A stretch of DNA of 55,133 nt. Source: Nitrosomonas sp. Its GTDB lineage: Bacteria > Pseudomonadota > Gammaproteobacteria > Burkholderiales > Nitrosomonadaceae. The translations under genes were made by a program, and so were the position numbers. Location of the stretch: the NCBI RefSeq assembly GCF_022842015.1, contig NZ_JALHQJ010000009.1, positions 1 through 55,133 of the forward strand, given 5' to 3'. The notes beneath the pieces were generated by a model. The model saw only the letters and a list, made by a program, of their open reading frames with translations. It was not told where the DNA came from and did not search any database. Below are positions 1,990 through 24,110 of this stretch, piece by piece. The stretch's first letter is position 1, and every line of letters begins with the position of its first letter.

Positions 1990-3687
1990 GTGAGTCAATC
2001 TTTGCTTTCATTTCTAGCGTTCTTGCCACTCCTGTTGGTTGCGGTGCTGCTAGTTGGATTCAACTACCCTGCGCGGCGCGCAATGCCGCTAACGTTTATC
2101 GTAACCGTTATGATTGCACTGATTGTCTGGGAAATGCCGGTCAATCGAGTGATCGCATCGACTCTACAAGGTTTGATTTTAACCGGATCTATTTTATGGA
2201 TCATTTTTGGCGCGATACTGTTGCTCAATACGTTGAAACATTCCGGTGCCATTACCACGATCCGGCAGAGTTTCTCTAACATCAGTCCGGATCGGCGCAT
2301 TCAGGTAATTATCGTAGCCTGGATGTTCGGCTGTTTTGTTGAGGGCGCTTCAGGGTTTGGCACGCCGGCGGCTATCGTCGCGCCGTTGCTGGTCGCTCTG
2401 GGTTTTCCAGCGCTGGCGGCAGTAATGGCGGGGATGATGGTGCAATCCACGCCGGTATCGTTCGGCGCTGCAGGTACGCCGATTATCGTTGGCGTAAGCG
2501 GTGGATTGGACCAGACAGGCATCACCGAGCAATTAATCGCGGCTGGCTCCAGCTGGGAAGATTTCTATCGTTTGATTACAGGTGAAATTGCCATAATTCA
2601 CGCCATGACCGGTGTATTGATGCCACTGCTGATGTGTATGATGTTGACCCGTTTCTTCGGACGCAACCAATCCTGGACGGAAGGACTTGCGATCGCGCCT
2701 TTCGCTATTCTTTCCGGACTCGCGTTTGTTGTTCCTTACGCATTGGCAGGCATATTCTTAGGGCCGGAATTTCCATCGATCGTTGGCGCACTGGTCGGAT
2801 TAGCCATCGTCGTGCCTGCGGCTCGAGCCGGTTTCCTGACGCCCAAAAAACACTGGGATTTTCCTGCTGCCAAAAATTGGCCGACAGAATGGATTGGCAG
2901 CATCGAAATCAAGTTGGAAAATTTGACTGCAAGATCCACTGTTACCACCATGTCGGCCTGGTTGCCCTACGCACTACTGGCAACCTTGCTGGTACTGTCG
3001 CGGGTCAACACCGATATGAAAACGTTATTAAGCCATCATCTGACATTCAATTGGATTGACATATTGGGTGAAGAAAGCATTTCCGGAAGCATCGAATTCT
3101 TATATTCATCCGGAGGCATTATGATGTTCGTGGTTATGGCGACATTCTTTCTGCATCGGATGCAACTCAGCGAGCTCAAAGCTGCACTCAAGGAATCTTC
3201 GCGTACTTTGCTCGGGGCAGGATTCGTGCTGATTTTCACCATACCGATGGTGCGTATTCTGATCAACTCCGGGGTCAATCTGGCCGATTTTCCAGCCATG
3301 CCGCAAGTGATGGCGCAATGGGTTGCCAGCACCGTGGGGAATATTTATCCGTTTTTCGCCCCAGCAGTGGGTGCGTTGGGCGCATTTATCGCCGGTTCCA
3401 ACACCGTATCCAATTTGATGATGGCGCAATTTCAATTCGATAGTGCACAATTGATCGGTGTATCCAGCGCATTGCTGGTCGCCGTGCAAGCGGTTGGTGC
3501 CGCTGCGGGTAACATGATCGCCATCCATAACGTAGTCGCAGCATCCGCCACAGTCGGCTTGTTAGGACGCGAAGGAAAAATCATTCGCATGACCATTATC
3601 CCAACACTGTACTACTTGATCATAGTTGGCGTGATCACGCTGATTGCAATCCATACTACTTTAGGTATAACCGACCCCCTCATGTAA
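1990..3687 (+). CDS. lctP: L-lactate permease family transporter (LctP/LldP)
   Basis: A 565-residue polytopic inner-membrane protein, close to the usual 550-560 of this family (TC 2.A.14), which imports lactate or glycolate with protons. At least twelve hydrophobic segments are visible. The family core [20 protein letters not shown] is present near residues 112-131, with a second conserved stretch [19 protein letters not shown] near residues 462-480. Translation starts at GTG; ACGGGAAA upstream is a weak ribosome site, and an ATG at 1985 is out of frame. No lactate dehydrogenase gene is adjacent, so the physiological substrate (lactate, glycolate or another 2-hydroxyacid) is open. Glycolate would make sense in an autotroph with Rubisco, but that is inference. 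Confidence 0.9.
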
Positions 3688-3852
3688 AATAAAATAACTG
3701 GAGAGGAATTGAGTTGAGGGATGTTATAACTAATATCCATAAATTGTATACTTACCCTTGTGCTTCTAAGAAGACCTCACTGCAGAAGGCCGAAGCATCA
3801 ATTTACATTCATTTAAAATAATGGCTATCGTTTTTTCACAACTTTTGACCCT
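3688..3852. other. Intergenic stretch with no recognisable feature
   Basis: 165 bp between lctP and the YdjM-like gene. I find no convincing hairpin terminator, tRNA or small ORF. Confidence 0.4.
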
Positions 3853-4863
3853 ATGGATTTAATAACTCAAGGATTGCTTGGCGCCACAATGGCGCAATCA
3901 GGTGCCAGGCAACAGGAAATGCGCATAGCAACTGGCATTGGTTTTCTGGCTGGTATTGCAGCGGATGCCGATATCCTGATTCAATCTGAGAATGATCCGT
4001 TGTTGAATATCGAATTTCATCGTCATTTTACCCATTCACTGTTTTTTGTGCCGCTGGGTGCCTTGATTGTTGCTCTGTTGTTGTGGCCGTTCTTGCGCAA
4101 ACGTTTGCCTTTTGCTCGTTTGTATCTTTTCACTTTTCTCGGGTATTGTTTGAGTGGTGTACTGGATGCGTTCACCAGTTATGGTACGCATCTGTTCTGG
4201 CCATTGAGCGACGAGCGCGTGGCGTTGAGTATCATTTCGGTATTGGATCCGGCTTTCACCCTAATTCTGTTGATCGCCGGAGTGATGGCATACAGGAAAT
4301 ACAGTCATAAAGCAGCCCGCATCGGATTACTGCTCGCAGCGGCCTATTTGTCGTTCGGCTGGATGCAGTTGCAACGCGCAGAAACTGTCGCTGAATCATT
4401 GATTGCAGAAAGGGGACAGCAAGCAGAACAACTACTGGTGAAACCAACACTTGCCAATTTGCTGCTATGGCGCTCAATTTATGAGTTTAAAGGCAAATTG
4501 TATGTGGATGCGATTCGTGTCGGCTTATTCTCTGAGCCACGCATTTATCCAGGCGAATCGATTGAAAAATTTGTTATGAAACGTGACTTGAGTACACTGC
4601 CGGTCTCTTCGGTACTTGCGCAGGATATTGCACGTTTCAGTCATTTTTCTGCGGGATTACTGGCGATTCGCCCGGAGCAACCCAATGTACTTGTTGATGT
4701 ACGCTATTCGAACTTACCCATGACGCTAGCACCGCTATGGGGCATCGAGATAAATCCGGAGCAGCCGGAACAGCACGCAAAATACACGCTCTATCGAGAT
4801 GCATCCGGTGGCACTCGGGAAAAATTTATCACCCTGCTACTAGGCGGGCATTTATTAGACTAA
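3853..4863 (+). CDS. YdjM/YbcI-family membrane-bound metal-dependent hydrolase-like protein (DUF457)
   Basis: The opening MDLITQGLLGATMAQSGARQ and the His motif HRHFTHSLFF (about residues 56-65) are typical of the YdjM family, described as LexA-controlled inner-membrane proteins and annotated as metal-dependent hydrolases; an enzymatic activity has not been firmly shown. Residues 1-180 hold four or five membrane segments. Residues 180-336 form a soluble domain with beta character, longer than in short YdjM proteins. The gene lies upstream of the cyclase gene on the same strand, 95 bp away, so co-transcription is possible. No LexA box was recognised upstream. Confidence 0.8.
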   Translation: MDLITQGLLGATMAQSGARQQEMRIATGIGFLAGIAADADILIQSENDPLLNIEFHRHFTHSLFFVPLGALIVALLLWPFLRKRLPFARLYLFTFLGYCLSGVLDAFTSYGTHLFWPLSDERVALSIISVLDPAFTLILLIAGVMAYRKYSHKAARIGLLLAAAYLSFGWMQLQRAETVAESLIAERGQQAEQLLVKPTLANLLLWRSIYEFKGKLYVDAIRVGLFSEPRIYPGESIEKFVMKRDLSTLPVSSVLAQDIARFSHFSAGLLAIRPEQPNVLVDVRYSNLPMTLAPLWGIEINPEQPEQHAKYTLYRDASGGTREKFITLLLGGHLLD

Positions 4864-4958
4864 ATCAATTATCGTAAGTCACCGGGAAACAGATTAACTA
4901 TCCGGTGTCTGCTTGTTTTTTTCCAACAATATGCGCTGCAGTTTATGCATGAATAAAC

Positions 4959-7214
4959 ATGGCTAGATGGCTTAAACACCTTCTCCTGGGCATTGTTATC
5001 GGCTTGACGGGAGTCATTGTGCACCTTTCTCCTGCGGGGATATGGATGGAAGAGAAATTTGGTTTGTATTGGTTGTTTCATTTGCGCGGAGCAATAACAG
5101 CCCCAGACAACGTCGTCGTCGTTGCCATTGACCAACCTTCTGCATCCCGGCTCAATTTACCTACGACTCCACACTCATGGCCGCGCGAATTACATGCACG
5201 GCTTATCGAGCAATTAACCCAGGCCGGGGCACGTATCATTGTATTTGATCTTATTTTTGATTCTCCCAGCACAATAGCTGCGTATGATCAGAAACTGGCA
5301 TTAAGCATGAAAACGGCGGGTAATGTCGTGCTGGTTGAAAGACTGGTCTATGAAGATAGCGCGCTTGCCACAGATGCAAACGAACAAAATTATAACCGGA
5401 TTGTTAAGGAAGGGCCTAAACAGCTCCTGCCGATTATTGCCAATGCAGCCAAAGCCCATGCACCTTTTCCTTTGCCCAAAATGGAAAGAGTCAATAATTA
5501 TTGGGTTTTTAAAGCCGATGCCGGCGATATCCCCACGATACCCACAGTTGTTTTACAAATCTTTGCACTGCCCATTTATGAGAATCTAGCCCGGTTATTG
5601 CATAGGGTTGACCCGGCCTATGCAGCGCAACTTCCAATTAAAGAAGAGGCTTTGGATATTGAAGATTTAATTTTTACACTACGTGATCTCCTCCACAATT
5701 CATCTAGCCTTGCGCATCGTTTGAAAATTGAACTCAATCGCGATGCAAATCTGGATCCCATCCAAAGAAATATGCTTCACGCGCTTCTGAATCTATATTC
5801 CGGAAGCGACACACGTTACTTGAATTTTTATGGCCCTCCGCGCAGCATCGATACCATACCCTATCATCAGGTCTTGCACCCTGGTGAAGATGAGGTCACC
5901 AAAAAATCTATCCCAATGAATTTTAGGAATAAAGTTGTATTTGTCGGATTCTCTGCAGCGACTCAGCCGGAACAAGACATTGTCCGGGATGATTATCACA
6001 CTGTATTCTCAAACCCCGATGGACTTTACATCAGCGGCGTCGAAATAGCGGCAACAGCGTTTGCCAATTTACTGGAAAACAAACCTATCAGACCCTTCCC
6101 TCTAGTGGGTAGTTTAGGTATTTTATTGGTATTAGGTCTTGGGTTGGGTATCGTTTTTATGCTCTTGCCTAATCGAAGCGCCATCGTGGCCAGTTTCGTC
6201 CTGATTTCTTCTTATGCAGGGAGTGCCTATTATTTCTTCAAAGAAATTAGCATCTGGTTGCCACTCATCAATCCGGTTTTTCTGCAGCTACCGATGGCGC
6301 TATTTGGTGCAATATCGCTCAAATATTACGAAGAAAAACATGAAAGCCAGCAACTAAAAAAAGCTTTTGGCTATTTTCTTCCTGATCGTGTCGTCAATGA
6401 TATTGTCAGAAATTCAGGAGCGATGGCACTGAATAATCAACTCGTGTATGGCGCTTGCCTTGCGACCGATGCCGAAGCCTATACCGCGCTTGCTGAAAAG
6501 ATGGAACCGCAGCAACTCGGTCAATTAATGAATAACTACTACGCTGTTTTGTTTGATCCCGTCAAGCAGCATAATGGCACGGTTTCCGATGTAGTTGGCG
6601 ATGCCATGCTCGCCATCTGGGCCAAAACATCCGCCAGCTCCGATTTACGTAAAAACGCTTGTCTTGCGTGCCTGGATATCGCTGCCGATATTGAACGCTT
6701 TAATCATACCGCTAACCAGCCAAAATTACCTACGCGCATGGGACTACATTTTGGCGAAATGTTATTAGGCAATATTGGCGCACTGCATCATTTTGAATAC
6801 CGCGCGGTTGGTGATATCGTCAATACCACTAGCCGCATCCAGGGCGTCAATAAATACCTGGGCACCCGCTTGCTGGTATCAGGTCAAGTGATCTCGGGTT
6901 TAGATGAATTTCTGATTCGTCCATTGGGAGATTTTCTCCTGACCGGAAAATCCACACCCGTTAACTTGTTCGAACTGGTCGCACACAAGCAATCGGCCAA
7001 TCAGTTGCAGTTATGGTTGTGTGAAACATTTTCCAGTGTACTCAAAGCCTATCAGAATCAACAATGGACTGAGGCTTGCGATGGTTTATATAAAATCCTG
7101 GATAAAATCCCAGAGGATGGCCCCTCAAAGTTTTTTTTAAACATTTGCAAAAAAAAACAATCAGTGCCTTCAGTTGATGCATGGAACTCAACTATACGCA
7201 TTGAAACCAAATAA
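4959..7214 (+). CDS. CHASE2-domain class III nucleotide cyclase (membrane sensor)
   Basis: 751 residues. One N-terminal membrane segment (7-22) is followed by a periplasmic CHASE2 sensor region (about 35-375), three membrane helices (about 381-403, 408-427, 433-453) and a cytoplasmic class III cyclase domain (about 495-675). Catalytic features visible: metal Asp504 in LATDAEAYT, second metal Asp548 in VSDVVGDAMLAIW, and Asn622/Arg626 in VGDIVNTTSRIQG. The positions that usually select adenine (Lys before the second metal motif; Thr or Asp in the later strand) read Ser/Asp and Arg, so cAMP versus another product is uncertain. CHASE2 cyclases are often encoded beside FecR-domain proteins, as here (7376). 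The signal sensed is unknown. A short C-terminal tail (675-751) may be helical-repeat-like. Confidence 0.9.
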   Translation: MARWLKHLLLGIVIGLTGVIVHLSPAGIWMEEKFGLYWLFHLRGAITAPDNVVVVAIDQPSASRLNLPTTPHSWPRELHARLIEQLTQAGARIIVFDLIFDSPSTIAAYDQKLALSMKTAGNVVLVERLVYEDSALATDANEQNYNRIVKEGPKQLLPIIANAAKAHAPFPLPKMERVNNYWVFKADAGDIPTIPTVVLQIFALPIYENLARLLHRVDPAYAAQLPIKEEALDIEDLIFTLRDLLHNSSSLAHRLKIELNRDANLDPIQRNMLHALLNLYSGSDTRYLNFYGPPRSIDTIPYHQVLHPGEDEVTKKSIPMNFRNKVVFVGFSAATQPEQDIVRDDYHTVFSNPDGLYISGVEIAATAFANLLENKPIRPFPLVGSLGILLVLGLGLGIVFMLLPNRSAIVASFVLISSYAGSAYYFFKEISIWLPLINPVFLQLPMALFGAISLKYYEEKHESQQLKKAFGYFLPDRVVNDIVRNSGAMALNNQLVYGACLATDAEAYTALAEKMEPQQLGQLMNNYYAVLFDPVKQHNGTVSDVVGDAMLAIWAKTSASSDLRKNACLACLDIAADIERFNHTANQPKLPTRMGLHFGEMLLGNIGALHHFEYRAVGDIVNTTSRIQGVNKYLGTRLLVSGQVISGLDEFLIRPLGDFLLTGKSTPVNLFELVAHKQSANQLQLWLCETFSSVLKAYQNQQWTEACDGLYKILDKIPEDGPSKFFLNICKKKQSVPSVDAWNSTIRIETK

Positions 7215-7267
7215 TCGGAACCGTTACATCCCCAAACCTTAATCTAGCGACAAGGTTACTTCTTTCG

Positions 7268-7273
7268 TATAAT
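7268..7273 (+). promoter_or_regulatory. Possible -10 element upstream of the first FecR-TPR-barrel gene
   Basis: A perfect TATAAT lies about 100 bp before the start at 7376. The -35 region at the right distance is poor, so this is weak support for a promoter separate from the cyclase gene. Confidence 0.25.
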
Positions 7274-7375
7274 CAAACCTCTGTTAGAACCTGAATTGCG
7301 AATACGAATTTCTCACGACTCAAGGCTACGCATCAGCATGCACTCCAGAATCTGGAACCATCATAATACATAATA

Positions 7376-10300
7376 ATGAAAATACCCCAGCGAACTGAAT
7401 CCAGCTTTAGCTGCCGGGGTATGTTGGCAATCTTGCAATCCGCATTTCTTTTCCTGTTGTTTCTGAGCTCTATGAATAGTGCACATGCGACCGGAAACTG
7501 CGAATCAGAAATAGCCAAGCTTATTTCAGTCCAAGGAACCATTGAATTGCGCCGTGCCAACGAACAGACCTGGCAGAAAACGGCCATGCACACCGCTGTC
7601 TGCCTGGGAGACACTATCCGCGCACGCTCGCATAGTCGGGCCGCGCTGTTGTTAAACAATGCCAGTGTGGTGAGACTGGATCAAAAAACCAGCATGGCGT
7701 TTCCCAAGCCAGAAAATAACAGCGCGACCTCATTACTGGAATTATTTGCCGGTGCAATCCATATCATTACCCGCACACCTAAGCCATTTAAGGTTAGAAC
7801 ACCCTTTCTCACCGGCGGTGTTGAAGGTACCGAATTTTTTGTTGGTGTCGATGAAAATAGTACCCGACTGATCCTTTATGAAGGAAAAGTGACTGTCAAT
7901 AATGATCAGGGAACTGCTGTACTTGCCGATCATGAAGCGGCAATCGCTAGTCGAAATACCGCACCGCAGAAAATAAACCTTATCAATCCAACGGACGCCG
8001 TTCAATGGGCTTTGTACTATCCGACCATTATTAATATTCATCTCGAACCGTTAACGACATCAAATGCACCCTCTGATCTACAGCAATCTGTCGAACTCTA
8101 TCGGCAAGGAAAAGCTTCCGAAGCGCTATCCCTGCTTGATGACATTGAATTACCCCATTACCCTGACAACCTGCCGCTCTACCGGGCCAGCCTGTTATTG
8201 GCAGTTGGTCAGGCCAATGAGGCCGAAACAATGATTGAGGAAGTACTCGTAAAACAACCCGATAACAGTGAGGCATATGCCTTACTGGCCTTGATCGCAG
8301 TTGTTCAGAATAACAAGGAACACGCGCTGGAATTAGCTACACGTGCAAATGCGCTGCATGCTAACTCTACGTCAGCACTACTTGCGCTTTCGTATGCGCA
8401 GCAAGCGCATTTTAGAATTGAAGCGGCCTTGGCGAGCGTTCTACAAGCGGCAACGATAGAACCCGACAATGCTTTGGTATGGGCTAGACTTTCTGAATTA
8501 CACATGTCCGTAGGTGACCTGGATCGCGCGCACGAAGCAGCGCAACAAGCAGTCAATTTAAACCCTAATATTGCCAGAACACAGGCGATTTTGGGTTATG
8601 CGCACTTATTGCAATTTCATACGCAGCTCGCGCAAACGGTTTTCTCCCAAGCCATCCTATTAGATCAGGCAGATCCTTTGCCAAGGCTGGGAATGGGGTT
8701 AGCGCTGATAAGAGAAGGCAGGCTCGAAGCGGGTCGGGCTGAACTGGAAATCGCTGTCAGTCTGGATCCGGCGAACTCGCTTATTCGCAGCTACCTCGGC
8801 AAGGCCTACTTTGAGGAAAAACGCTATCCGCTGGCCAACACGCAATTCGACCTAGCTAAAGCACGCGATCCGCACGATCCAACTCCCTGGTTTTATGATG
8901 CGATTCAAAAGCAAACTCAGAACCGACCAGTAGAAGCGCTGCAAGGCATCCAGAAATCGATCGAGCTGAACGACAATCGCGCAGTTTACCGATCCCGGTT
9001 GTTGCTGGATCGTGACGAAGCCGCGCGCGGAACAAGTCTGGCACGAATCTTCGAGAATCTGGGATTTGAAAAACGCGCCTTGATGGAAACTGCAAAATCC
9101 TTGAGTTTTGATCCGGGAAATCATTCGGCGCATCGGTTCTTATCCGATGCCTATGTCAATATTCCGCGACATGAAATTGCCCGTGTCAGCGAATTATTGC
9201 AAGCGCAGTTATTGCAGCCGATCAACGTTAATCCAGTACAACCGCATCTAGCTGTGGCGGATCTCAATATCATCACAGGAACAGCGCCGTCGGCCATAGG
9301 TTTTAATGAATTTGCTCCGCTCATGGAACGCAATAAGCCTCAGTTTGTGGCTTCCGGCATTGTTGGCAATAACGGCACTCTTGGGAATGAAGTGGTGGCT
9401 TCTCTTCAGCGTGACAGAGCTTCAATCAGCTTGGGGCAATTTCATCATGAAACGGATGGATTCCGCCCTAACAACGATCAAAGACATAATATTTACAATG
9501 CCTTCTTCCAGTATGCTTTAACTCCCAAGCTTAATATACAAGCTGAAGCCCGCACACGCGCATCAGAGCATGGGGACATTCAGTTGAATTTCTCTAAGTT
9601 CGGTGAAGATGGATTAAACGACAGATCGTATTACCGGAGAGAATTGAATGAGCAAGTTGCGCGATTTGGCGCAAGATACTCTATTTCACCTAGGCAGGAT
9701 CTTTTGTTTTCTACCAAGTATACAGCGCGTGACGAACGGATAGCTTTCAGTAAGACTGACGACCCTCTCAGGCTCGATTTGTCCGGATTGCAAATCGAAG
9801 CACAGCACTTGTTGCGGGAAAAATCTTTTAACTCGACCCTGGGTGGAGGAACCTACGATTTCGGGGGCATATATGATCGCAATACGATCTATACCTATAC
9901 CAACACGCACTTACCTAGAAATATTACGGGCACTCTTGGATTAAGCTACGATACATTTAGCAGCACCGTCAATTCCCATATAGACAAAATTAATCCCAAG
10001 ATTGGCTTGCAGTGGGATATGACAGATTTTTTTAGGCTGAGGGCCGCTTGGTTTGAGACTACAAAATCTCACATTATTGCGCAGCAATCGCTGGAACCCA
10101 CGCAAGTTGCCGGTTTCAATCAATTCTTTGACGAGCCCAACGGAACCAGAGCGCGGCGCATGGGTATCGGTTTTGATACGCGCGTTGCGGATAAGCTGTT
10201 CAGCGGTTTCGAGGCATCTGAACGCGACGTAAAAGTACCCTCAGCCCCTGCTAGTGAAGAAGTATTGTCGAAGCAAAATGAGCAACTATATCGCGCTTAT

Positions 10301-10744
10301 CTTTACTGGCTCCCCCATACCTTTTGGGCCATGCGGAGTGAATTTCAATACGAAAAGCTCGTGCATAATGGCGCAAATACGATTACCAATCCGGATCAGA
10401 TCAAAACAGTCAGCATGCCATTGAGTATTGAGCACTTTCATCCGAGCGGTTTGTTTTCCAGATTCACCGCAACTTTTGTCAAACAAGACCTGTTTCTTCA
10501 TGGTGATCATGGTCGAATCCGAGATCCGCAAAAAACTGCTTCAGGGATTGATTCATTTTTTCTGTTGGACTACGTCATTGGCTATCGGCTTTCCAATCGC
10601 AGGGGAATTTTGAGTTTGGAAGGAAAAAATCTGCTGGATGAGGCGTTTTATTACAGAAGCAGTTATCTTAATTTATCCGAGCCTGTTAACCCAATTTTTC
10701 TTCCAACCCGCACACTCTTTTTAAAACTAACCATGAATTTTTAG
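7376..10744 (+). CDS. FecR-TPR-outer-membrane barrel fusion protein, copy 1
   Basis: 1122 residues in four parts: a signal peptide (about 16-38, ending SAHA), a FecR domain (about 75-190, with VRTPFLTGGVEGTEF), TPR repeats (about 230-600), and a C-terminal barrel of about 470 residues. The chain ends NLLDEAFYYR ... PTRTLFLKLTMNF, like the last strands of TonB-dependent receptors, with terminal Phe. No TonB-receptor plug domain is seen, so the architecture resembles TPR-barrel exporters (PgaA, BcsC) as much as receptors. FecR here is exported and not tied to a sigma factor gene. The gene follows the CHASE2 cyclase by 161 bp. An inverted repeat, ATACCCC (7382-7388) with GGGGTAT (7416-7422), covers the start; ATG 7421 is an alternative start. 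Function unknown. Confidence 0.85.
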   Translation: MKIPQRTESSFSCRGMLAILQSAFLFLLFLSSMNSAHATGNCESEIAKLISVQGTIELRRANEQTWQKTAMHTAVCLGDTIRARSHSRAALLLNNASVVRLDQKTSMAFPKPENNSATSLLELFAGAIHIITRTPKPFKVRTPFLTGGVEGTEFFVGVDENSTRLILYEGKVTVNNDQGTAVLADHEAAIASRNTAPQKINLINPTDAVQWALYYPTIINIHLEPLTTSNAPSDLQQSVELYRQGKASEALSLLDDIELPHYPDNLPLYRASLLLAVGQANEAETMIEEVLVKQPDNSEAYALLALIAVVQNNKEHALELATRANALHANSTSALLALSYAQQAHFRIEAALASVLQAATIEPDNALVWARLSELHMSVGDLDRAHEAAQQAVNLNPNIARTQAILGYAHLLQFHTQLAQTVFSQAILLDQADPLPRLGMGLALIREGRLEAGRAELEIAVSLDPANSLIRSYLGKAYFEEKRYPLANTQFDLAKARDPHDPTPWFYDAIQKQTQNRPVEALQGIQKSIELNDNRAVYRSRLLLDRDEAARGTSLARIFENLGFEKRALMETAKSLSFDPGNHSAHRFLSDAYVNIPRHEIARVSELLQAQLLQPINVNPVQPHLAVADLNIITGTAPSAIGFNEFAPLMERNKPQFVASGIVGNNGTLGNEVVASLQRDRASISLGQFHHETDGFRPNNDQRHNIYNAFFQYALTPKLNIQAEARTRASEHGDIQLNFSKFGEDGLNDRSYYRRELNEQVARFGARYSISPRQDLLFSTKYTARDERIAFSKTDDPLRLDLSGLQIEAQHLLREKSFNSTLGGGTYDFGGIYDRNTIYTYTNTHLPRNITGTLGLSYDTFSSTVNSHIDKINPKIGLQWDMTDFFRLRAAWFETTKSHIIAQQSLEPTQVAGFNQFFDEPNGTRARRMGIGFDTRVADKLFSGFEASERDVKVPSAPASEEVLSKQNEQLYRAYLYWLPHTFWAMRSEFQYEKLVHNGANTITNPDQIKTVSMPLSIEHFHPSGLFSRFTATFVKQDLFLHGDHGRIRDPQKTASGIDSFFLLDYVIGYRLSNRRGILSLEGKNLLDEAFYYRSSYLNLSEPVNPIFLPTRTLFLKLTMNF

Positions 10745-10830
10745 CAAGAATACCAATTGTTCATGTATTATTTGATTAAAAATAATTGGTTATGCAGATT
10801 AATCTGTTTCTTTGATATTATTTGTTTTGG

Positions 10831-11133
10831 ATGAAGATTATGGCAATGACAGGACATACCACATTTGATACCTCAGTAATCCCTGTAAAATGTTGCGCAC
10901 ACCTAGAAACAACAGAACCTGGTCAACCAACCACCGATTTTCATGTCTATGCAAATGCAAATACCGCTATCCAATATCAAAATACCTGGTATTTTTTTGC
11001 CTATGATCCCACACAGCAGAGACCTAAACGCTGTTGTGTCTATTATGCAAAACAAGTGACAATCGGTGGGACAATAAGATATATCAAGGACAGTAATCGT
11101 CTTTTGTTTTGCGAAGATAGAACCCCGCTATAA
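10831..11133 (+). CDS. Hypothetical small protein between the two FecR-TPR-barrel genes
   Basis: About 100 residues, not recognised. There is no signal peptide or membrane segment. It has two Cys pairs (KCC and KRCC), an aromatic stretch NTWYFFAYDP and a C-terminal LLFCEDRTPL, and looks like a small beta-rich soluble protein. The start is uncertain: TTG 10822, ATG 10831, 10840 and 10846 are all in frame, and GGATGAAG precedes 10840. The gap to copy 1 is 86 bp. It may be a real accessory gene or a chance frame. Confidence 0.4.
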   Translation: MKIMAMTGHTTFDTSVIPVKCCAHLETTEPGQPTTDFHVYANANTAIQYQNTWYFFAYDPTQQRPKRCCVYYAKQVTIGGTIRYIKDSNRLLFCEDRTPL

Positions 11134-11476
11134 TCATCGTTAAATCTAGCTATTTACTATTAGGCGATATTCATGGCCTCTAACAACCCCTATCTCTTGG
11201 CAATTTGATTTCTACTTTTGCCATCCTGCATTACTTCATAGAAACTGAGCCTATCTTGCTCGCGCTAAAAGAATAAACGATTTATTTGCACGAGTATGAT
11301 TGGGTGTGTGAAATATCACATATTATCGAAAGGAAAAGCGTTAACATTTTCCAATGTGTAAGTTTCGCTATTTTTCTAAAGCCTCAATCAGCGCCAAACG
11401 TATCATTTTTGCAAAAGATGCAAATCGAGTGTTTTCGGAGGTGATTTCTGAGTGAGCAACAATAAGAAAGATCAAG
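11134..11476. other. Intergenic region upstream of FecR-TPR-barrel copy 2
   Basis: About 340 bp, rich in A and T. I see no tRNA, convincing hairpin or additional ORF. It probably holds the promoter of copy 2, but no confident -35/-10 pair was found. Confidence 0.35.
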
Positions 11477-14400
11477 ATGAAAATATGTTTACCATTTTTG
11501 CTACATCAGCGATTTGGAAAAGCATCAAGCTTGATGTTTATTCTTACCGCGATGCTTTTTTCACTGAGCCCTATCGGTTCACTGCATGCCGCAGCAGTGT
11601 GCACAGCGGAAACTGCTCGTGCTCGGATCGTATCCGTACAAGGCGTGATCGAGATCAAGCGTATGCAGGGAAAAACCTGGCAATCGGCCGATATGGACAC
11701 ACTGTTGTGTGGAGGCGACATGATCCGCTCCAGATCACACAGTCGCGCCGCATTAAGATTAAATAACGATAGCATGCTGCGGCTTGACCAGAAGTCGAAT
11801 ATTATTTTTCCGGCAATGCAAGAAGATAAGAGCATCTCGCTATTAGATTTTATTGAGGGCGCGATTCATATCATCACGCGGACACCGAAACCGTTCAAGA
11901 TCCGAACTCCCTTTGTTAACGCCAGTGTGGACGGCACCGAATTTCTGGTCAGCGTGTATGGGGACAATGCAGAAGTTGTGGTCTACGAAGGCAGGGTGTC
12001 CGTCAGTAATGACTGGGGTCATCTGGCACTGAATGATCATGAAGCGGCCACTATACACAAAGGTCAGGCACCCAAAAAAGAAATCACGCTATTCCCAATC
12101 GATGCGGTGCAATGGGCGTTGTACTATCCTACCATCTTGGATTACTGGCAGGATCGTAGCATGCAAGATATCAATGCATTAGTACATCAGGCAGGTCAAT
12201 TACTCCATACCGGGCAGGCTGAGGAAGCCCAGGCAATCATTCAGCGCGTGCTGCAACTGGAACCGGACAACAGTGATGCCTTTGCACTACTGGCAGTCAT
12301 TGCTGCCGTGCAAAATGACAAAGATCAAGCGCTCGAACTGGCAACCACAGCGGTTACCAACAACTCGGACTCGGCCGTAGCGCACATGGCGCTTTCCTAT
12401 GCCCAGCAAGCGCATTTTGAGATTCAAGCTGCGCTTAAAAGCGTACAACAAGCCATGCTACTGGATCCCCAGTATGCGCTGGCATGGGCGCGAATTGCGG
12501 AATTACAAATGTCGCTGGGCGAATTAGATCAAGCAAAGCAAGCCGCGCAACAAGCAGTCAGATTAAATCCTACTTTGAGCAAAACACAGATGATATTAGG
12601 CTTTGTACAGTTATTGCAACTCGAAACACAAGCTGCAAAAACAATTTTTCACCGTGCAATTGAACTCGATCAATCCGATCCGATGCCCAGGCTTGGACTT
12701 GGGCTTGCTTTGATTCGTGAAGGCAATCTCGAAGCAGGGCGCATAGAGCTTGAAATCGCTGCCAGTCTGGATCCGGCCAATTCGCTGATTCGCAGTTATT
12801 TGGGTAAGGCGTATTTCGAGGAAAAGCGCTATCCACTATCGAGCACGCAATTTGATCTGGCCAAAGAGCGCGACCCGAAAGACCCAACCCCGTGGCTCTA
12901 TGACGGTATCCAGAAACAAACTCAGAATCGCCCGGTGGAAGCGCTCAGGGATATCCAGAAATCGATTGAACTGAACAATAACCGTGCGGTATATCGATCC
13001 AAACTCCTGCTCGATCGCGATGAAGCGGCCCGTGGCTCCAGTCTGGCAAGAATTTTTGAGAACCTTGGATTTGAGAAACGCGCCCTCATGGAAACGTCAA
13101 AATCATTGAGCTTCGATCCATCCAGCCATTCGGCGCATCGTTTTTTATCGGATACCTATGCCAACATTCCGCGCCACGAAGCAGCACGCGTTAGCGAATT
13201 GCTGCAAGCGCAATTGCTGCAACCGATCAACGTAAATCCCGTGCAACCGCATTTGGTGGTAGCCGATCTCAATATCATAAATAACACAGGCCCATCGAAT
13301 CCAGGATTTAATGAATTTTCCCCCTTAATGGAGCGCAGCAAGGCACAATTGATCACGTCGGGTGTGGTTGGCAACAATGGCAGCTTGGGCAATGAAGTGG
13401 TTTTCTCTAAATTCAACGAGCGAACATCGATTAGCCTGGGACAATTTCATTATGAAACCAATGGCTTCCGCACCAACAATGATCAAAACCATGATATTCT
13501 CAATGCTTTCGTTCAACATGCACTAACATCCAGACTGAATTTGCAAGCAGAAGTGCGCACTCGTTCGTCGGATCAGGGCAATTTATTGCTGGATTTTGAC
13601 AGGGATTCCACAAATCTCAATCTACCTCAGAATAGATTCCGACGAAAAATCGATGAGGACTCGGTTCGCATAGGCGGCAAATATGATCTAGCACCTAATC
13701 AGAATATCATTATGTCGGGACAATACACTGATAGAAAAAGTGAGAATACGGATCCCATTCCTGTGGGGCTGATTAATAATTTAACCTCAGCTAAAAATGA
13801 AGCCTATCAGACTGAAATTCAATATCAGTTTCGTAGCAATCGGATTAATATGCTAGCGGGCTCTGGCATTTATCGTACCAATGTTGATCGGGACATTAGA
13901 GAAATAAGCTTGCTAACAAAACAAGTAAATTGCTGTTCAACTGAGAACTTCAACAATAACAAAACAAATGGCTATGTTTATACCAATTTGAATTTTAATG
14001 AGAACACAAATGTTACTCTTGGTTTTAGCTACGACTCTTATAAAGGAAGGGGCTTGCCAGTTGATGGATTTAACCCAAAATTAGGTTTACAGTGGAACTT
14101 TACCAAGCAATTAAGGCTGCGCATGGCGTTGATTGAAACAATTAAAGCGCCCCTCACAACTCAGCAGACTATTGAACCTACACAGGTTGCTGGGTTTAAT
14201 CAATTATTTGATGATCCTAATGGCACAAAATCCCATCGAATGGGAATTGGATTGGATGCTCATCATGGAAATAAAGTCTTTACTGGTTTTGAAATTTCCA
14301 GCCGTAATTTGAGAGTTCCTGTGCACTCTTCGAAAAGTAGCAGTTTCCAAGACCAGAAAGAAAATTTGTACCGAGCATACTTATATGGCTTATTGCATAC

Positions 14401-14791
14401 TTACTGGACTGCCAAAAGTGAAATTCAGTTTGAGAAATTTTCTCGGGCGGAAACATCTGCCGGCCCTCATCAAATTGACACTTTCAGTATTCCTACCGGA
14501 ATAGATTATTTTAATCCCAGGGGATTTTTTGCCAATTTGACCAGCACCTTTGTACATCAGAAGATTGACCGACAGGGGAATCAGAATGAAGGCGTCGATA
14601 AATTTTTCTTAGTTGATGCATCGGTTGGTTATCGACTCCCCAATCGCCGAGGAATTGTAAGTCTAGAAGCAAGAAATCTTTTTGATGAATCTTTTTTATT
14701 CCGCAATATCAATTTCCAAACATCCGAGCCTGTTAACTCACGTTTTGTTCCAACTCGTACAATCTTTGCGCGGGTAACATTAAATTTCTAG
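11477..14791 (+). CDS. FecR-TPR-outer-membrane barrel fusion protein, copy 2
   Basis: 1104 residues with the same order as the copy at 7376: signal peptide (about 12-40), FecR domain (about 80-190, IRTPFVNASVDGTEFLV), TPR region (about 220-600), then barrel to the end, NLFDESFLFRN ... FARVTLNF with terminal Phe. The TPR end and the barrel entry (about residues 430-690) are close to identical to copy 1, whereas the FecR domain and the barrel middle have diverged. That middle includes a Cys-Cys pair and Asn-rich loops absent from copy 1. AAGAAAG lies upstream of the ATG. A lipoprotein gene starts 18 bp after the stop, so the two are almost certainly co-transcribed. Expected location: periplasm and outer membrane. 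Substrate unknown. Confidence 0.85.
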   Translation: MKICLPFLLHQRFGKASSLMFILTAMLFSLSPIGSLHAAAVCTAETARARIVSVQGVIEIKRMQGKTWQSADMDTLLCGGDMIRSRSHSRAALRLNNDSMLRLDQKSNIIFPAMQEDKSISLLDFIEGAIHIITRTPKPFKIRTPFVNASVDGTEFLVSVYGDNAEVVVYEGRVSVSNDWGHLALNDHEAATIHKGQAPKKEITLFPIDAVQWALYYPTILDYWQDRSMQDINALVHQAGQLLHTGQAEEAQAIIQRVLQLEPDNSDAFALLAVIAAVQNDKDQALELATTAVTNNSDSAVAHMALSYAQQAHFEIQAALKSVQQAMLLDPQYALAWARIAELQMSLGELDQAKQAAQQAVRLNPTLSKTQMILGFVQLLQLETQAAKTIFHRAIELDQSDPMPRLGLGLALIREGNLEAGRIELEIAASLDPANSLIRSYLGKAYFEEKRYPLSSTQFDLAKERDPKDPTPWLYDGIQKQTQNRPVEALRDIQKSIELNNNRAVYRSKLLLDRDEAARGSSLARIFENLGFEKRALMETSKSLSFDPSSHSAHRFLSDTYANIPRHEAARVSELLQAQLLQPINVNPVQPHLVVADLNIINNTGPSNPGFNEFSPLMERSKAQLITSGVVGNNGSLGNEVVFSKFNERTSISLGQFHYETNGFRTNNDQNHDILNAFVQHALTSRLNLQAEVRTRSSDQGNLLLDFDRDSTNLNLPQNRFRRKIDEDSVRIGGKYDLAPNQNIIMSGQYTDRKSENTDPIPVGLINNLTSAKNEAYQTEIQYQFRSNRINMLAGSGIYRTNVDRDIREISLLTKQVNCCSTENFNNNKTNGYVYTNLNFNENTNVTLGFSYDSYKGRGLPVDGFNPKLGLQWNFTKQLRLRMALIETIKAPLTTQQTIEPTQVAGFNQLFDDPNGTKSHRMGIGLDAHHGNKVFTGFEISSRNLRVPVHSSKSSSFQDQKENLYRAYLYGLLHTYWTAKSEIQFEKFSRAETSAGPHQIDTFSIPTGIDYFNPRGFFANLTSTFVHQKIDRQGNQNEGVDKFFLVDASVGYRLPNRRGIVSLEARNLFDESFLFRNINFQTSEPVNSRFVPTRTIFARVTLNF

Positions 14792-14809
14792 AAGAAAGGA
14801 GAAAATAGC

Positions 14810-15523
14810 ATGCCAAATCTTAAGCACCCTTTTGTGATATTTTTATTATTCTTAGTATTTGTATTAACAGGATGTGAAACACATAAAATTCGTGATACGC
14901 ATCCTTCAAATTTATTTTCAAAAGACTTACCAATCGAACTTGCAAATGAGCTAGAAAAAATTTCGAATGTTAATTTCGGTTTTGTTGTACTCATCGATAG
15001 TACTAATGGGCAGAAAAGGTATTTGAAGCATGTCGATGCAGGTTCATATCGTGTAGTTGGCCCTGAAGCTGCGTCTGAAATAAGAAACATTGCATCAGTT
15101 TCCATAACCGGAGTTAGCGGGATAGAAATACAGGGAGCGAAATTTAATTCCTGTAATTATATTAGTATCAATGGTCAAATTGAACTCATTTGTCTAAAAA
15201 ATGAAAACCAGGAACCACGAGCTATTGCAAATTTAGTTACCGATATAGCTTTATTACCTTCTGAATTAGCTAGCAGACTTGAGAAAGCAGCGGAAATGAG
15301 CAATATTGGGTTTCTTGTTCTTGTTGACATAGTCACCGGTAAAGCAAAGCTTCTAAAACGAGAAAATTATGTTAGCTTGTCGGCAAGTTTTCCTCAATCC
15401 ATATCTGGAATAGTCAGTGGTAGCGCGTGGAACGTAACAACGTACAAGAAGAATCCATGCTGTTATTGGATTAATATTGATGGCGATCTGGGGTATGTGT
15501 GTAAGAAACATATTAATTGTTAG
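14810..15523 (+). CDS. Lipoprotein with two related repeat units, unknown function
   Basis: 237 residues. The signal peptide ends in the lipobox LTGC, with Cys at about position 22, so it should be lipid-anchored. AAAGGAGAAAATAGC before the ATG is a strong ribosome site. The mature part is an internal duplication. Unit 1 (about 43-136) reads LPIELANELEKI, then FGFVVLIDSTNG, then SCNYISINGQIELICLK. Unit 2 (about 150-237) reads LPSELASRLEKA, then IGFLVLVDIVTG, then CCYWINIDGDLGYVCKK. Each unit holds a helix followed by strands and ends with a Cys pattern. It follows FecR-TPR-barrel copy 2 by 18 bp, so I infer a partner role for the barrel. I do not recognise the family. Confidence 0.75.
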   Translation: MPNLKHPFVIFLLFLVFVLTGCETHKIRDTHPSNLFSKDLPIELANELEKISNVNFGFVVLIDSTNGQKRYLKHVDAGSYRVVGPEAASEIRNIASVSITGVSGIEIQGAKFNSCNYISINGQIELICLKNENQEPRAIANLVTDIALLPSELASRLEKAAEMSNIGFLVLVDIVTGKAKLLKRENYVSLSASFPQSISGIVSGSAWNVTTYKKNPCCYWINIDGDLGYVCKKHINC

Positions 15524-15564
15524 AACACTCAGGTATGTTCTTTTAGTGATGAATAGTAAAATCA

Positions 15565-15596
15565 TACATCAAGGCAATTTAGATTGCCTTGATGTA
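15565..15596. terminator. Bidirectional hairpin terminator
   Basis: A perfect 14-bp stem (TACATCAAGGCAAT with ATTGCCTTGATGTA) with loop TTAG, placed between the converging lipoprotein gene and the acidic protein gene. Short T/A runs flank it on both sides. Confidence 0.75.
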
Positions 15597-15622
15597 GAAA
15601 GATACCATTCTATAAATCTGTA

Positions 15623-16375
15623 TTAAGCTGTAGCTAATCCCAGAATGCTATGATCAAGCACTCCAACTAAATTGCTTTCCCAGTATTTATCGATAATGTT
15701 TACTGCTTCACTTGTAACTAAATCAACCAGTTCCTCCTCGCTCCAAGCAATCAGAGTAGGAGACTCACTCAATGCGTCAAGAATAAGTAATTGAAACTCC
15801 TCTTGATCATCATTTCTAGGAAAAGTGTTAATCTGATCCAGTTCAGTTTCATCAAGTGCTGAAAATATATTGATTATAGAGCCGTAAAATAGAGATTCTA
15901 TGCTTTCATTTGTTGCTGAAACATTGACTAAATGCCCTACACCTAATTCTTCAGCATCATATTTCCCATCATTAAGCTCAAAATCGGCGTACTCTACAAA
16001 AGTGAAATCATAATTTAGTGGCATATTAATTTCTGATCGGACTGTGTCACTCAATGATGAATTCGATAAAATGCCATCCCTTTCATTAAAACTAATAAGT
16101 CGTTCCAAAGAGCCTAAATCAGAATTTACTAGTAAACTGGTATAATCCACTTCCTTGTTGTTTAAACCAGCAACATCAAAATACTCTCGAATTACAGTAG
16201 TAGAGTGTCCAGAAATTTCGTTGAGCATATTTGTTGTTACACCATTTTCTCTGGCAGCGGCAAAAATTATTTCTGCTTGTCCAACATTTGCATTAATAAA
16301 ATCATTTGCTTGTTTAATGCTATACCCTAGTTTTGCTAAGTGTGCTTCAGCCGAAATGAATGATTTTACTGACAT
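15623..16375 (-). CDS. Acidic leaderless protein, unknown; possible type I secretion substrate
   Basis: 250 residues, strongly acidic, with no cysteine and no N-terminal signal peptide. The first 70 residues (FISAEAHLAKLGYSIKQAND, then NVGQAEIIFAAARENGVTTN, then MLNEISG) form a helical module of a kind I associate with the N-termini of large secreted RTX-type proteins of ammonia oxidisers; this is memory, not a search. The C-terminus is hydrophobic and small (HSILGLATA), compatible with an uncleaved type I secretion signal. AAAGGATTAAATC precedes the ATG. The gene converges on the lipoprotein gene across a shared terminator. No ABC/MFP secretion genes are in the window. Function unknown. Confidence 0.65.
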   Translation of the reverse strand: MSVKSFISAEAHLAKLGYSIKQANDFINANVGQAEIIFAAARENGVTTNMLNEISGHSTTVIREYFDVAGLNNKEVDYTSLLVNSDLGSLERLISFNERDGILSNSSLSDTVRSEINMPLNYDFTFVEYADFELNDGKYDAEELGVGHLVNVSATNESIESLFYGSIINIFSALDETELDQINTFPRNDDQEEFQLLILDALSESPTLIAWSEEELVDLVTSEAVNIIDKYWESNLVGVLDHSILGLATA

Positions 16376-16750
16376 GATTTAATCCTTTAAAAATTAATGT
16401 GGATTCAACATTGATGTCGCTTGTATATAGTAGTATATGATACTCTACGAATACATTTAGATGACGGTATAGTCCCTCATGCATACAACAGTTTTCTTGT
16501 CAATGGTTATTTTACAATGCCTGTAGCGCAGCTTCATTTAATTTGGAACTGACTCTTCTTTCGGGCAAACTAAGATTCGAGAGACCTTCGGACAAAGAGC
16601 CTTTTTTGACGATAATTCTAGTGCAGTTTCGAGAAAACATTCAGCAGATGCATGTGCTCCCGGTCAATACAGAAAGTAAGCACTTGGAATCATAAAAAAT
16701 CCCATTAAGGTTTATCATACTCTTCTTTGTTCAATTTACAGACGATCTGA
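16376..16750. promoter_or_regulatory. Divergent promoter region (acidic protein gene / cysteine desulfurase gene)
   Basis: 375 bp between divergent genes, A/T-rich near the minus-strand gene (TATATAGTAGTATATGATAC around 16425-16444). It must hold both promoters, but I could not assign -35/-10 pairs with confidence. No ORF or RNA gene seen. Confidence 0.35.
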
Positions 16751-17908
16751 ATGGAACCAGTCTATTTCGACCACAATGCCACCACCCGCGTCGATGACGC
16801 TGTGCTAGAAGCCATGTTGCCGTACTTTCAACAGGAGTTCGGCAATGCCTCCAGTCGCCATGGGTATGGCTTGAGCGCGCGGCGGGCAATTGATAAAGCG
16901 CGCAAGCAGGTTGCGGATGCAGTAGGGGTGCAACCGGTGCAGGTGATTTTCACCAGCGGTGGTTCGGAGGCGAATAATTTGTTTATCCGCGGCGCGGCCG
17001 ATAATCTGAAACCCGGCAATCTTTTCATTAGCGCGATTGAGCATCCTTGTGTGCTGAAACCAACCCAGGCGCTATCTCGCCGCAGTTGCGATGCGTGGGC
17101 GATGCACCAGTTGGCGGTTAATGCATCCGGACAAGTGGATTTGGATGCGGCGGGTGACGCGATGCAGAATCACAAGCCGGGATTGGTTGCAGCGATGCTG
17201 GCCAATAACGAGACCGGCGTGATTCAGGATGTTGCCAGTGTTGCCGAGCTGGCACGCTCGCATGGCGCTTATGTACATACCGATGCGATCCAGGGATTGG
17301 GGAAAATTCCGGTTGATTTTTCGGCACTCAGAGTACATGCGATGACACTTTCCGCACACAAGATTTATGGCCCCAAAGGCGCAGCGGCTTTGATCGTCGA
17401 CAAACGGTTGTTATTAAAACCGCTGATCTATGGTGGCGGACATGAAAACGGGTTGCGCTCCGGCACCGAGAACGTGCCTGCGATTGTCGGTTTTGGCGTA
17501 GCGTGCGAATTGGCACAAGCACGCATGGCCGAAACCTCGCAACATGTCTCTTTATTACGCGACCAGTTAGAAAAGGGATTGGTTCTCATGGGCGCAGTGA
17601 TTTTCGGCAGCGCTGCCACGCGCATTCCCAACACGTGCTATTTTGCGTTGCCGGATATTGAGGGTGACACACTGGTGGTTAAACTGGATAAAGCTGGTTT
17701 TGCCGTCGCGGCCGGGGCCGCTTGTTCCAGCGTGAATCCGGGACAAAGTCATGTGCTGAATGCAATGCAGGTTGATTCGATGCTTGCGCGGTGCGCGGTG
17801 CGCGTCAGTTTGGGGCGCAACAACACGCTGGAACAAATTGATAATTTCTTGCATGTTACGCAGCGCATTGTTGCAGAATTGAAGCAAACAAGCAGTCTTT
17901 CTTTTTAA
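16751..17908 (+). CDS. Cysteine desulfurase (NifS/IscS family, PLP enzyme)
   Basis: 385 residues, normal for the family. It converts cysteine to alanine and leaves persulfide sulfur on an active-site Cys for Fe-S cluster or thiolation pathways. Visible are the N-terminal FDHNATTRVD, the substrate/PLP His98 in AIEHPC, the Schiff-base Lys204 in SAHKIYGPKG, the RSGTENV loop and the persulfide Cys325 in AGAACSS. No iscU, iscA or suf genes are adjacent, so this is a stand-alone paralogue; its partner could be a TusA-like protein such as the one at 487. A dispersed repeat element begins about 20 bp after the stop. Confidence 0.92.
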   Translation: MEPVYFDHNATTRVDDAVLEAMLPYFQQEFGNASSRHGYGLSARRAIDKARKQVADAVGVQPVQVIFTSGGSEANNLFIRGAADNLKPGNLFISAIEHPCVLKPTQALSRRSCDAWAMHQLAVNASGQVDLDAAGDAMQNHKPGLVAAMLANNETGVIQDVASVAELARSHGAYVHTDAIQGLGKIPVDFSALRVHAMTLSAHKIYGPKGAAALIVDKRLLLKPLIYGGGHENGLRSGTENVPAIVGFGVACELAQARMAETSQHVSLLRDQLEKGLVLMGAVIFGSAATRIPNTCYFALPDIEGDTLVVKLDKAGFAVAAGAACSSVNPGQSHVLNAMQVDSMLARCAVRVSLGRNNTLEQIDNFLHVTQRIVAELKQTSSLSF

Positions 17909-23231: not shown

Positions 23232-24110
23232 ATGGAAATAACTACTGACATCTATCATGGCGACAGCGCAGAACAATTAAAACTGCTTCCCGATGATTCT
23301 ATTGACATGATCATTACGTCGCCACCTTACGCAGATCAACGCAAAAACACTTATGGTGGCATTCACCATGATAAATATGTGGAATGGTTTTTACCAATTT
23401 CGGCACAGCTTTTGAGGGTTCTAAAACCAACTGGAACTTTTGTGCTAAATATTAAAGAAAAAGTAGTTGAAGGCGAACGCAGCACTTATGTAATCGAGCT
23501 CATTTTAGAAATGCGTAAACAAGGATGGCTATGGACGGAAGAGTTTATTTGGCATAAGAAAAATTGCTACCCTGGAAAGTGGCCTAACCGTTTCCGTGAT
23601 GCTTGGGAGCGGCTTCTTCAATTTAACAAAAATAGAAAATTTAATATGTATCAAGAAGAAGTAATGGTTCCGATGGGTGATTGGGCAAACTCAAGACTAA
23701 AAAATCTTTCTGAAGCTGATAAAACTCGCGATAACTCAAAAGTTGGAAGCGGATTTGGCAAAAATATTTCAAACTGGCTTTATAGAGAGAAAGCATATCC
23801 AGCAAATGTTTTACATTTAGCCACGGAATGTAACAATAAAAATCATAGCGCAGCTTTTCCTGAAGAATTACCTGAATGGTTTATCAAACTTTTTACAAAA
23901 GAAAATGATAGAGTACTTGATCCATTTATGGGTTCTGGAACTACGTTAATTGTCGCGAATCGAATGAAACGAAATTCAGTTGGTATCGATATCGTTCCTG
24001 AGTACTGCGAAATGGTGAAAAAGCAATTAAAACCCGTTGAATTATGCCTCTTCGAACCCAGGGCGGTTTATGAAACAGTTAAACCTAAAAGACGTATCAC
24101 TATACGTTGA
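23232..24110 (+). CDS. Type II DNA methyltransferase (beta class, SPPY motif)
   Basis: 292 residues. The catalytic motif IV TSPPY (29-33) comes first and the SAM-binding DPFMGSGTT (230-238) last, with the target-recognition region between them; this order defines the beta class. SPPY favours N4-cytosine or N6-adenine methylation. The gene is visibly richer in A/T than its neighbours. It overlaps the downstream endonuclease gene by 41 bp, so the pair is translationally linked, a common way to keep methylase and nuclease levels in step. The pair has no visible control (C) protein gene. Recognition site not readable. Confidence 0.88.
   Translation: MEITTDIYHGDSAEQLKLLPDDSIDMIITSPPYADQRKNTYGGIHHDKYVEWFLPISAQLLRVLKPTGTFVLNIKEKVVEGERSTYVIELILEMRKQGWLWTEEFIWHKKNCYPGKWPNRFRDAWERLLQFNKNRKFNMYQEEVMVPMGDWANSRLKNLSEADKTRDNSKVGSGFGKNISNWLYREKAYPANVLHLATECNNKNHSAAFPEELPEWFIKLFTKENDRVLDPFMGSGTTLIVANRMKRNSVGIDIVPEYCEMVKKQLKPVELCLFEPRAVYETVKPKRRITIR

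Follow-up and report, generated by a model that had tools for sequence, protein, structure and literature searches.

In Sinorhizobium meliloti, the outer-membrane receptor NsrA is described as necessary, together with the adenylate cyclase CyaK, for the perception of a plant signal (PMC7529298; also PMC13001267), and its barrel has been placed at residues 600-1200 (PMC7529298). A locus that probably works in the same manner is found in an ammonia oxidiser, Nitrosomonas sp. (assembly GCF_022842015.1), on contig C9 (NZ_JALHQJ010000009.1). The stretch analysed, called the window below, comprises positions 1 to 55,133 of the forward strand of this contig, 55,133 nucleotides in total. It carries, on the plus strand, the genes of a CHASE2 class III nucleotide cyclase (P0001), of two large proteins (P0002 and P0003), each of which joins a FecR domain, an array of tetratricopeptide repeats (TPRs) and a C-terminal barrel, and of a lipoprotein (P0004). 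These four genes are referred to here as the module. The source genome comprises 3.06 Mb in 130 contigs and is 99.95% complete.

Several other systems share parts of this plan. A gene cluster of Campylobacterota, as described in PMC9239204, contains a CHASE2 adenylate cyclase, a phosphodiesterase, a FecR outer-membrane protein and a TPR protein. Compared by description, it differs from the Nitrosomonas module in that FecR and TPR are named as separate genes and in that a phosphodiesterase is included. The BiofilmReg operon of Burkholderia, the subject of a 2016 paper (PMC5192318), combines a LysM-FecR protein with a CHASE2 histidine kinase. It is similar to the module in that a FecR-bearing exported protein lies beside a CHASE2 sensor, but its output is a histidine kinase, and the description given in that paper speaks of neither a barrel nor a TPR array. 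The source genome itself has a second pair which resembles BiofilmReg: a LysM-FecR protein followed by a CHASE2-PAS-GGDEF-EAL protein (G000:C2, L090, 8360-12918), in which the domains of cyclic di-guanosine monophosphate (c-di-GMP) turnover, GGDEF-EAL, are the output. The FecA-FecR-FecI system has in common with the module a FecR domain and a barrel of the TonB-dependent-receptor type, and FecA is among the structural matches of P0003. In the module, however, FecR and barrel are parts of one chain in which no plug family is found, and the proposed partner in the inner membrane is a cyclase. No sigma-70-type gene (PF04542) is present on contig C9, as had been observed in a preliminary description of this DNA, whereas six matches exist genome-wide. 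A search of open-licence papers found none on CHASE2 in Nitrosomonas.

The cyclase gene comes first in the module (4959..7214; 751 residues). Its product has a CHASE2 domain at residues 36-397 (5064-6149; PF05226, E 7.9e-31) and a Guanylate_cyc domain at residues 503-666 (6465-6956; PF00211, E 2.6e-11). The first barrel protein, P0002 (7376..10744; 1122 residues), has its FecR domain at residues 79-172 (7610-7891). The second, P0003 (11477..14791; 1104 residues), has its FecR domain at residues 82-174 (11720..11998; PF04773, E 6.2e-15, also found in the genome scan), the TPR array at residues 231-581 (12167..13219), where Pfam TPR matches coincide with helical repeats in the model, and the barrel at residues 623-1103 (13343..14785). 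The lipoprotein gene (14810..15523) starts 18 base pairs after the end of P0003. The order, the common strand, the domains and this short gap are as the preliminary description had them; a small open reading frame between the two barrel genes was absent from it.

The S. meliloti counterpart on pSymB was found via its cyclase. A frame of 1219 residues (P0005), with a FecR domain at residues 85-179 and TPRs, overlaps the start of the cyclase gene with its last base. This pair is taken for nsrA-cyaK, because the cyclase is annotated as cyaK in other S. meliloti records and the architecture is as described. The Nitrosomonas module resembles nsrA-cyaK in two respects: an exported FecR domain, a TPR array and a C-terminal barrel are united in one protein, and the gene of that protein lies directly beside the gene of a CHASE2 class III cyclase. 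In a BLAST comparison P0003 matches P0005 over the FecR domain (E 4e-11) and the TPRs, and in one 59-residue stretch of the barrel at E 5e-4. A profile comparison gives a probability of 99.8% over 961 columns at 21% identity, one of the profiles consisting of two sequences only. When P0003 was compared with plasmid records, none of the 42 matching records reached 80% coverage at a single place, and pSymB is not among the 40 of these 42 that were listed. The two systems also differ. The nsrA gene is upstream of cyaK, whereas in Nitrosomonas the cyclase comes first; the purine-selecting residues of P0001 are Asp544 and Arg615, where CyaK has Lys and Ser; and the second barrel copy, the lipoprotein and the small open reading frame are additions of the Nitrosomonas module. 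Since the purine residues are unlike those of CyaK, the module appears to be a variant of NsrA-CyaK and not a plain member. On this comparison, the relay from the outer membrane to a cyclic nucleotide that was proposed in the preliminary description is already a known kind of system, and what is new is the gene order, the purine residues and the extra parts.

P0002 and P0003 are 56% identical, and each has a FecR domain and many TPR matches in Pfam. The family PF00593 (TonB_dep_Rec_b-barrel) matches P0003 with 51.1 bits and P0002 with 27.0 bits, which is exactly the cut-off; no Plug family was found in either protein at E<=0.001. The AlphaFold2 model of P0003, made with 66 sequences, has a mean predicted local distance difference test score (pLDDT) of 86.7 and a predicted template modelling score (pTM) of 0.85. 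It consists of an N-terminal beta domain, the helical repeats and 22 strands, only 41 residues separating the end of the TPR array from the first strand. The top Foldseek matches in the PDB are TonB-dependent receptors, namely Fiu (2.7e-16), FptA (3.5e-16), OprC (1.7e-15) and FecA (3.6e-15), with template modelling (TM) scores by target of 0.50 to 0.57. VIA-align finds TPR proteins and again TonB-dependent receptors, for instance BtuB (Z 20.3, root-mean-square deviation 3.5, 430 aligned). The C-terminal part of P0003 is modelled, then, as a 22-strand barrel of the TonB-dependent-receptor type without a recognisable plug, and the outer-membrane barrel lacking a plug that had been read from the sequence is upheld by structure prediction. 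The protein has the 22-strand barrel of a TonB-dependent receptor and lacks the N-terminal plug domain. Several of the receptor matches in VIA-align start at residues 519-536 of P0003, and in the model the last part of the TPR array, together with the linker, may partly occupy the place of the plug.

Conservation is uneven along the chain. Over the same 66 sequences the mean majority fraction is 0.80 in the linker, 0.76 in the TPR array, 0.64 in the FecR domain and 0.55 in the barrel, so that conservation in the P0003 family is highest in the linker and the TPR array. When the N-terminus is taken as periplasmic and the sides of the barrel are counted from it, the inner turns are 2-5 residues long and nine of the ten are constant in length, and eight of the 11 outer loops vary in length, within 0 to 43 residues. 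One long loop, 890-917, shows good conservation. On the model and these patterns, P0003 may be a receptor at the cell surface whose conserved inner part acts as a transducer.

The linkage of cyclase and barrel was examined at two scales. A scan with P0003 alone gave 135 relatives, of which the best 80 were kept; they represent 78 loci, or 79 with the window. The nearest matches among these 80 are from Nitrosomonas, with 94% and 85% protein identity. The loci span mostly Nitrosomonadaceae, and they also occur in metagenome-assembled genomes whose record names are Brocadia, Desulfobacula, Syntrophobacteraceae, Desulfosarcina, Nitrospirales and gammaproteobacteria, where mis-binning is possible. 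A P0001-like cyclase is found directly upstream on the same strand in 53 of the 79 loci; it is convergent downstream in two, and the sequence ends upstream of the barrel gene in ten. An N. europaea record (L058) is among the loci that have the pair. The distance from the end of the cyclase to the open frame of the barrel protein ranges from -70 to 1212 base pairs. Among the 16 loci outside the Nitrosomonas-like set (L065-L080), 11 are paired, with distances of -70 to 119 base pairs, three are cut off by the end of the sequence and two are unpaired in the flank.

The second count was made in 41 class-level genomes, hand-picked for having at most 80 contigs from the 66 genomes with CHASE2 among 114, with the source genome added; two further genomes (G008 and G058) meet the contig limit but were left out. 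All 65 FecR matches and 73 of the 76 CHASE2 matches were used, three matches to pieces in G031 being left out. Of the 11 FecR frames with 900 residues or more, counted by length alone, seven lie within 5 kilobases of a CHASE2 gene, compared with 0.07 expected from random placement with contig ends ignored. For all FecR matches the figures are 27 of 65 and 0.51. Of the four large frames outside this distance, two are second tandem copies, another lies close to the end of its contig and the fourth is unlinked. In the source genome both CHASE2 genes adjoin FecR genes. The co-occurrence beyond chance on which the relay had been made to depend is borne out by both counts.

P0001 is the sole match to PF00211 (class III) in the source genome, where no class I cyclase was found. 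In an alignment with CyaK, Asp544 (codon at 6588..6590) stands in the column where adenylate cyclases have Lys and guanylate cyclases have Glu, and Arg615 (6801..6803) stands in the second purine-selecting column. These columns were counted in 50 P0001-like cyclases, that is, in the frames of more than 700 residues among 57 matches; the seven shorter pieces left out come from L024 and L035 (two each) and from L031, L070 and L077 (one each). The first column holds Asp in 36, Glu in nine, Asn in three and Gly in two of the cyclases, and Lys in none. The second holds Arg in 40, Asn in five, Thr in two, and His, Ser and Val in one each. All 50 retain both metal-binding Asp residues as well as the Asn and the Arg; in P0001 they are Asp504, Asp548, Asn622 and Arg626. 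The best sequence match of P0001 in the PDB, 2w01, has Glu in the first column and Gly in the second. By the same alignment the CHASE2 guanylate cyclase Cya2 of Synechocystis is like P0001 in its acidic residue and differs from it in having Gly in place of Arg. Glu488 is the residue in question in Cya2, the E488K form of which serves as an adenylate cyclase (PMC5995499). In another guanylate cyclase, Glu seems to contact guanine, and the second purine position is said to vary (PMC7384201). P0001 possesses the acidic residue and the intact metal Asp, Asn and Arg residues of a class III guanylate cyclase, although the known cases have Glu, not Asp, and Arg615 stands where Cys or Ser is expected. 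The combination of an acidic residue with Arg is compatible with guanosine triphosphate as the substrate, and the absence of the adenine-selecting Lys of CyaK is a hint of cyclic guanosine monophosphate (cGMP) as the product. Because the purine-selecting residues of P0001 are unlike those of adenylate cyclases, cGMP appears at least as likely as cyclic adenosine monophosphate (cAMP).

Taken together, these comparisons make it probable that the module is a signalling unit of the NsrA-CyaK kind, leading from the outer membrane to the cytoplasm. The FecR-TPR-barrel protein would reside in the outer membrane, presumably exposed at the surface. The effect of a ligand or of a change of the envelope at the barrel would travel along the conserved linker and the TPR array as far as the FecR domain in the periplasm. 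This domain would contact the periplasmic CHASE2 domain of the adjoining cyclase and switch it, as gene linkage and the genetics of NsrA-CyaK suggest. The cyclase would then make a 3',5'-cyclic nucleotide, either cGMP or cAMP, and the reader would be a regulator of the CRP family. In 20 loci the 7-kilobase flanks of the barrel genes contain a CRP-like gene, the family being a single-linkage cluster in which the L025 and L066 members look more distant; the closest relative in the source genome is encoded elsewhere, on contig C27, and is 82% identical to the copy of L038. The second barrel copy may serve as a second receptor and the lipoprotein as an accessory factor. A relay from the outer membrane to a cyclic nucleotide is supported because the co-occurrence exceeds chance, the barrel is modelled and NsrA-CyaK provides a genetic precedent. 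The preliminary description had left open whether the module is one of signalling or of transport; of the two, transport is the less likely. A more specific form of the proposal is tentative and rather doubtful. It holds that a receptor-type barrel, with its own FecR and TPR transducer in the plug's stead, drives a guanine-selecting CHASE2 cyclase, and that ammonia oxidisers and their anammox and sulfate-reducer relatives would sense the surface by way of cGMP, the genome's only 3',5'-cyclic mononucleotide, with a linked CRP-family reader and a lipoprotein tuning the receptor.

A number of observations weigh against the signalling unit. Linkage among related Nitrosomonas is non-independent evidence. 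No cyclase is present in the flank of 14 of the 79 barrel loci. A P0001-like cyclase is encoded elsewhere in the genome for 11 of these, and the other three, Nitrosovibrio L042 and Nitrosospira L052 and L054, keep the barrel without any CHASE2 match genome-wide; the barrel protein must therefore act without CHASE2 there. These three genomes are the chief finding against the unit. Among the 41 genomes, 46 of the 73 CHASE2 matches have no FecR match within 5 kilobases and 12 genomes have no FecR match, so CHASE2 also works without FecR. In the barrel, the residues of the outer loops (0.52) are as conserved as those of the inner turns (0.51), and only the lengths differ. NsrA itself (P0005) has no PF00593 match in Pfam, and the printed profile alignment of P0003 with NsrA stops early in the barrel, and TPR repeats raise such scores. 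With gaps of 161 and 732 base pairs in the window, the module may or may not be co-transcribed, and a promoter scan gave 11 sites, fewer than the mean of 21.9 in shuffled sequences. For RNA elements in the gaps, Rfam gave no match at gathering thresholds in the interval 3500-17000.

It is unlikely that the barrel protein is instead a transport channel for TonB-independent uptake or export, with the cyclase linked just through regulation or co-regulation. Such a channel would agree with the transporter type of the barrel in Foldseek and VIA-align and with the three genomes that keep the barrel in the absence of CHASE2. In one group of 14 loci the cyclase is preceded by a member of a family of about 690 residues, TonB-dependent-receptor-like by eye, and in the model the last TPR helices and the linker, from which the VIA-align matches begin, might take up some of the room of a plug. 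On the other side, no Plug family is detected and the stretch between the TPRs and the first strand is short, the FecR-TPR part is conserved more than the barrel, the linkage reaches the metagenome-assembled genomes of other phyla with frames that are close or overlapping, and NsrA is described as required for signal perception (PMC7529298).

A separation of functions, in which the barrel protein is an envelope or assembly factor, CHASE2 senses on its own and their proximity reflects shared inheritance, is improbable. In its favour, most of the loci are from one family, so that common descent inflates the counts; moreover, three genomes have the barrel alone, and many CHASE2 genes have no FecR gene nearby. 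The pair is retained, however, in 11 of the 16 loci outside the Nitrosomonas-like set, with three more cut off and two unpaired, and in S. meliloti the order is reversed, yet the genes still touch. The barrels of PgaA and BcsC have 16 strands. The comparison with these two proteins made in the preliminary description was mistaken, and a polysaccharide export porin of their kind, under the control of the cyclase and with TPRs guiding the polymer into the barrel, is very improbable: TPRs and barrel do share one chain, and P0002 does match PgaA (E 2.2e-7) and BcsC (E 5.6e-7) in NCBIfam, but with 29.5 and 27.7 bits against cut-offs of 366.65 and 858 bits and over the TPR region only, not the full length. 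Structure also disfavours export, since the barrel is modelled with 22 strands and its listed PDB matches are receptors of the TonB-dependent type. In the first 24.8 kilobases, where 18 proteins were searched with Pfam, there is one nucleotidyl transferase but no glycosyltransferase or polysaccharide synthase family.

The lipoprotein P0004 (237 residues) has the lipobox LTGC and matches no Pfam family. Relatives occur as 22 copies in 21 loci, downstream of the barrel genes or between them, and two Cys residues are invariant in the 21 copies that were aligned (the L008 copy was left out). Its model is a two-fold repeat with a mean pLDDT of 82.6, for which a PDB search gives nothing at E<=0.001. 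The best matches were triphosphate tunnel enzymes, at E 8e-3 and a TM score of about 0.2, and this assignment was not used. The small open reading frame between the barrel genes (10840..11133, plus strand) encodes about 97 residues with two CC motifs. Its relatives adjoin barrel genes in five other loci, which makes a family of six loci; it has no match in Pfam or NCBIfam, and no signal peptide is evident by eye.

Downstream of the lipoprotein gene, and convergent with it, lies a gene on the minus strand (15623-16375) for a protein of 250 residues that matches neither Pfam nor NCBIfam at E<=0.001. Its relatives are found near the module in 27 loci including the window, in 34 copies, mostly downstream on the opposite strand. 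An inverted repeat with a stem of 14 pairs (15565-15596) separates the two convergent genes. In the three loci whose genomes have no CHASE2 match, a protein with a TIR-like start, as judged by eye, is encoded convergently downstream of the barrel gene, and in L052 and L054 an AAA+ activator-like gene, also recognised by eye, is upstream of it. The other genes near the module are ordinary by Pfam: a YdjM-like protein, a lactate permease, a class V aminotransferase and others. Farther along the window, at 23232-24801, an N6/N4 DNA methylase gene overlaps a frame for an EcoO109I-type restriction endonuclease.

If the module is the signalling unit proposed here, NsrA-CyaK would be no oddity of symbiosis but one case of a widespread kind of signalling that leads from the outer membrane to a cyclic nucleotide in the cytoplasm and involves neither a sigma factor nor a kinase. 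Nitrosomonas, with no other such cyclase found in this genome, would then be a clean host in which the class of ligand, the contact between FecR and CHASE2 and the choice between cGMP and cAMP could be established.

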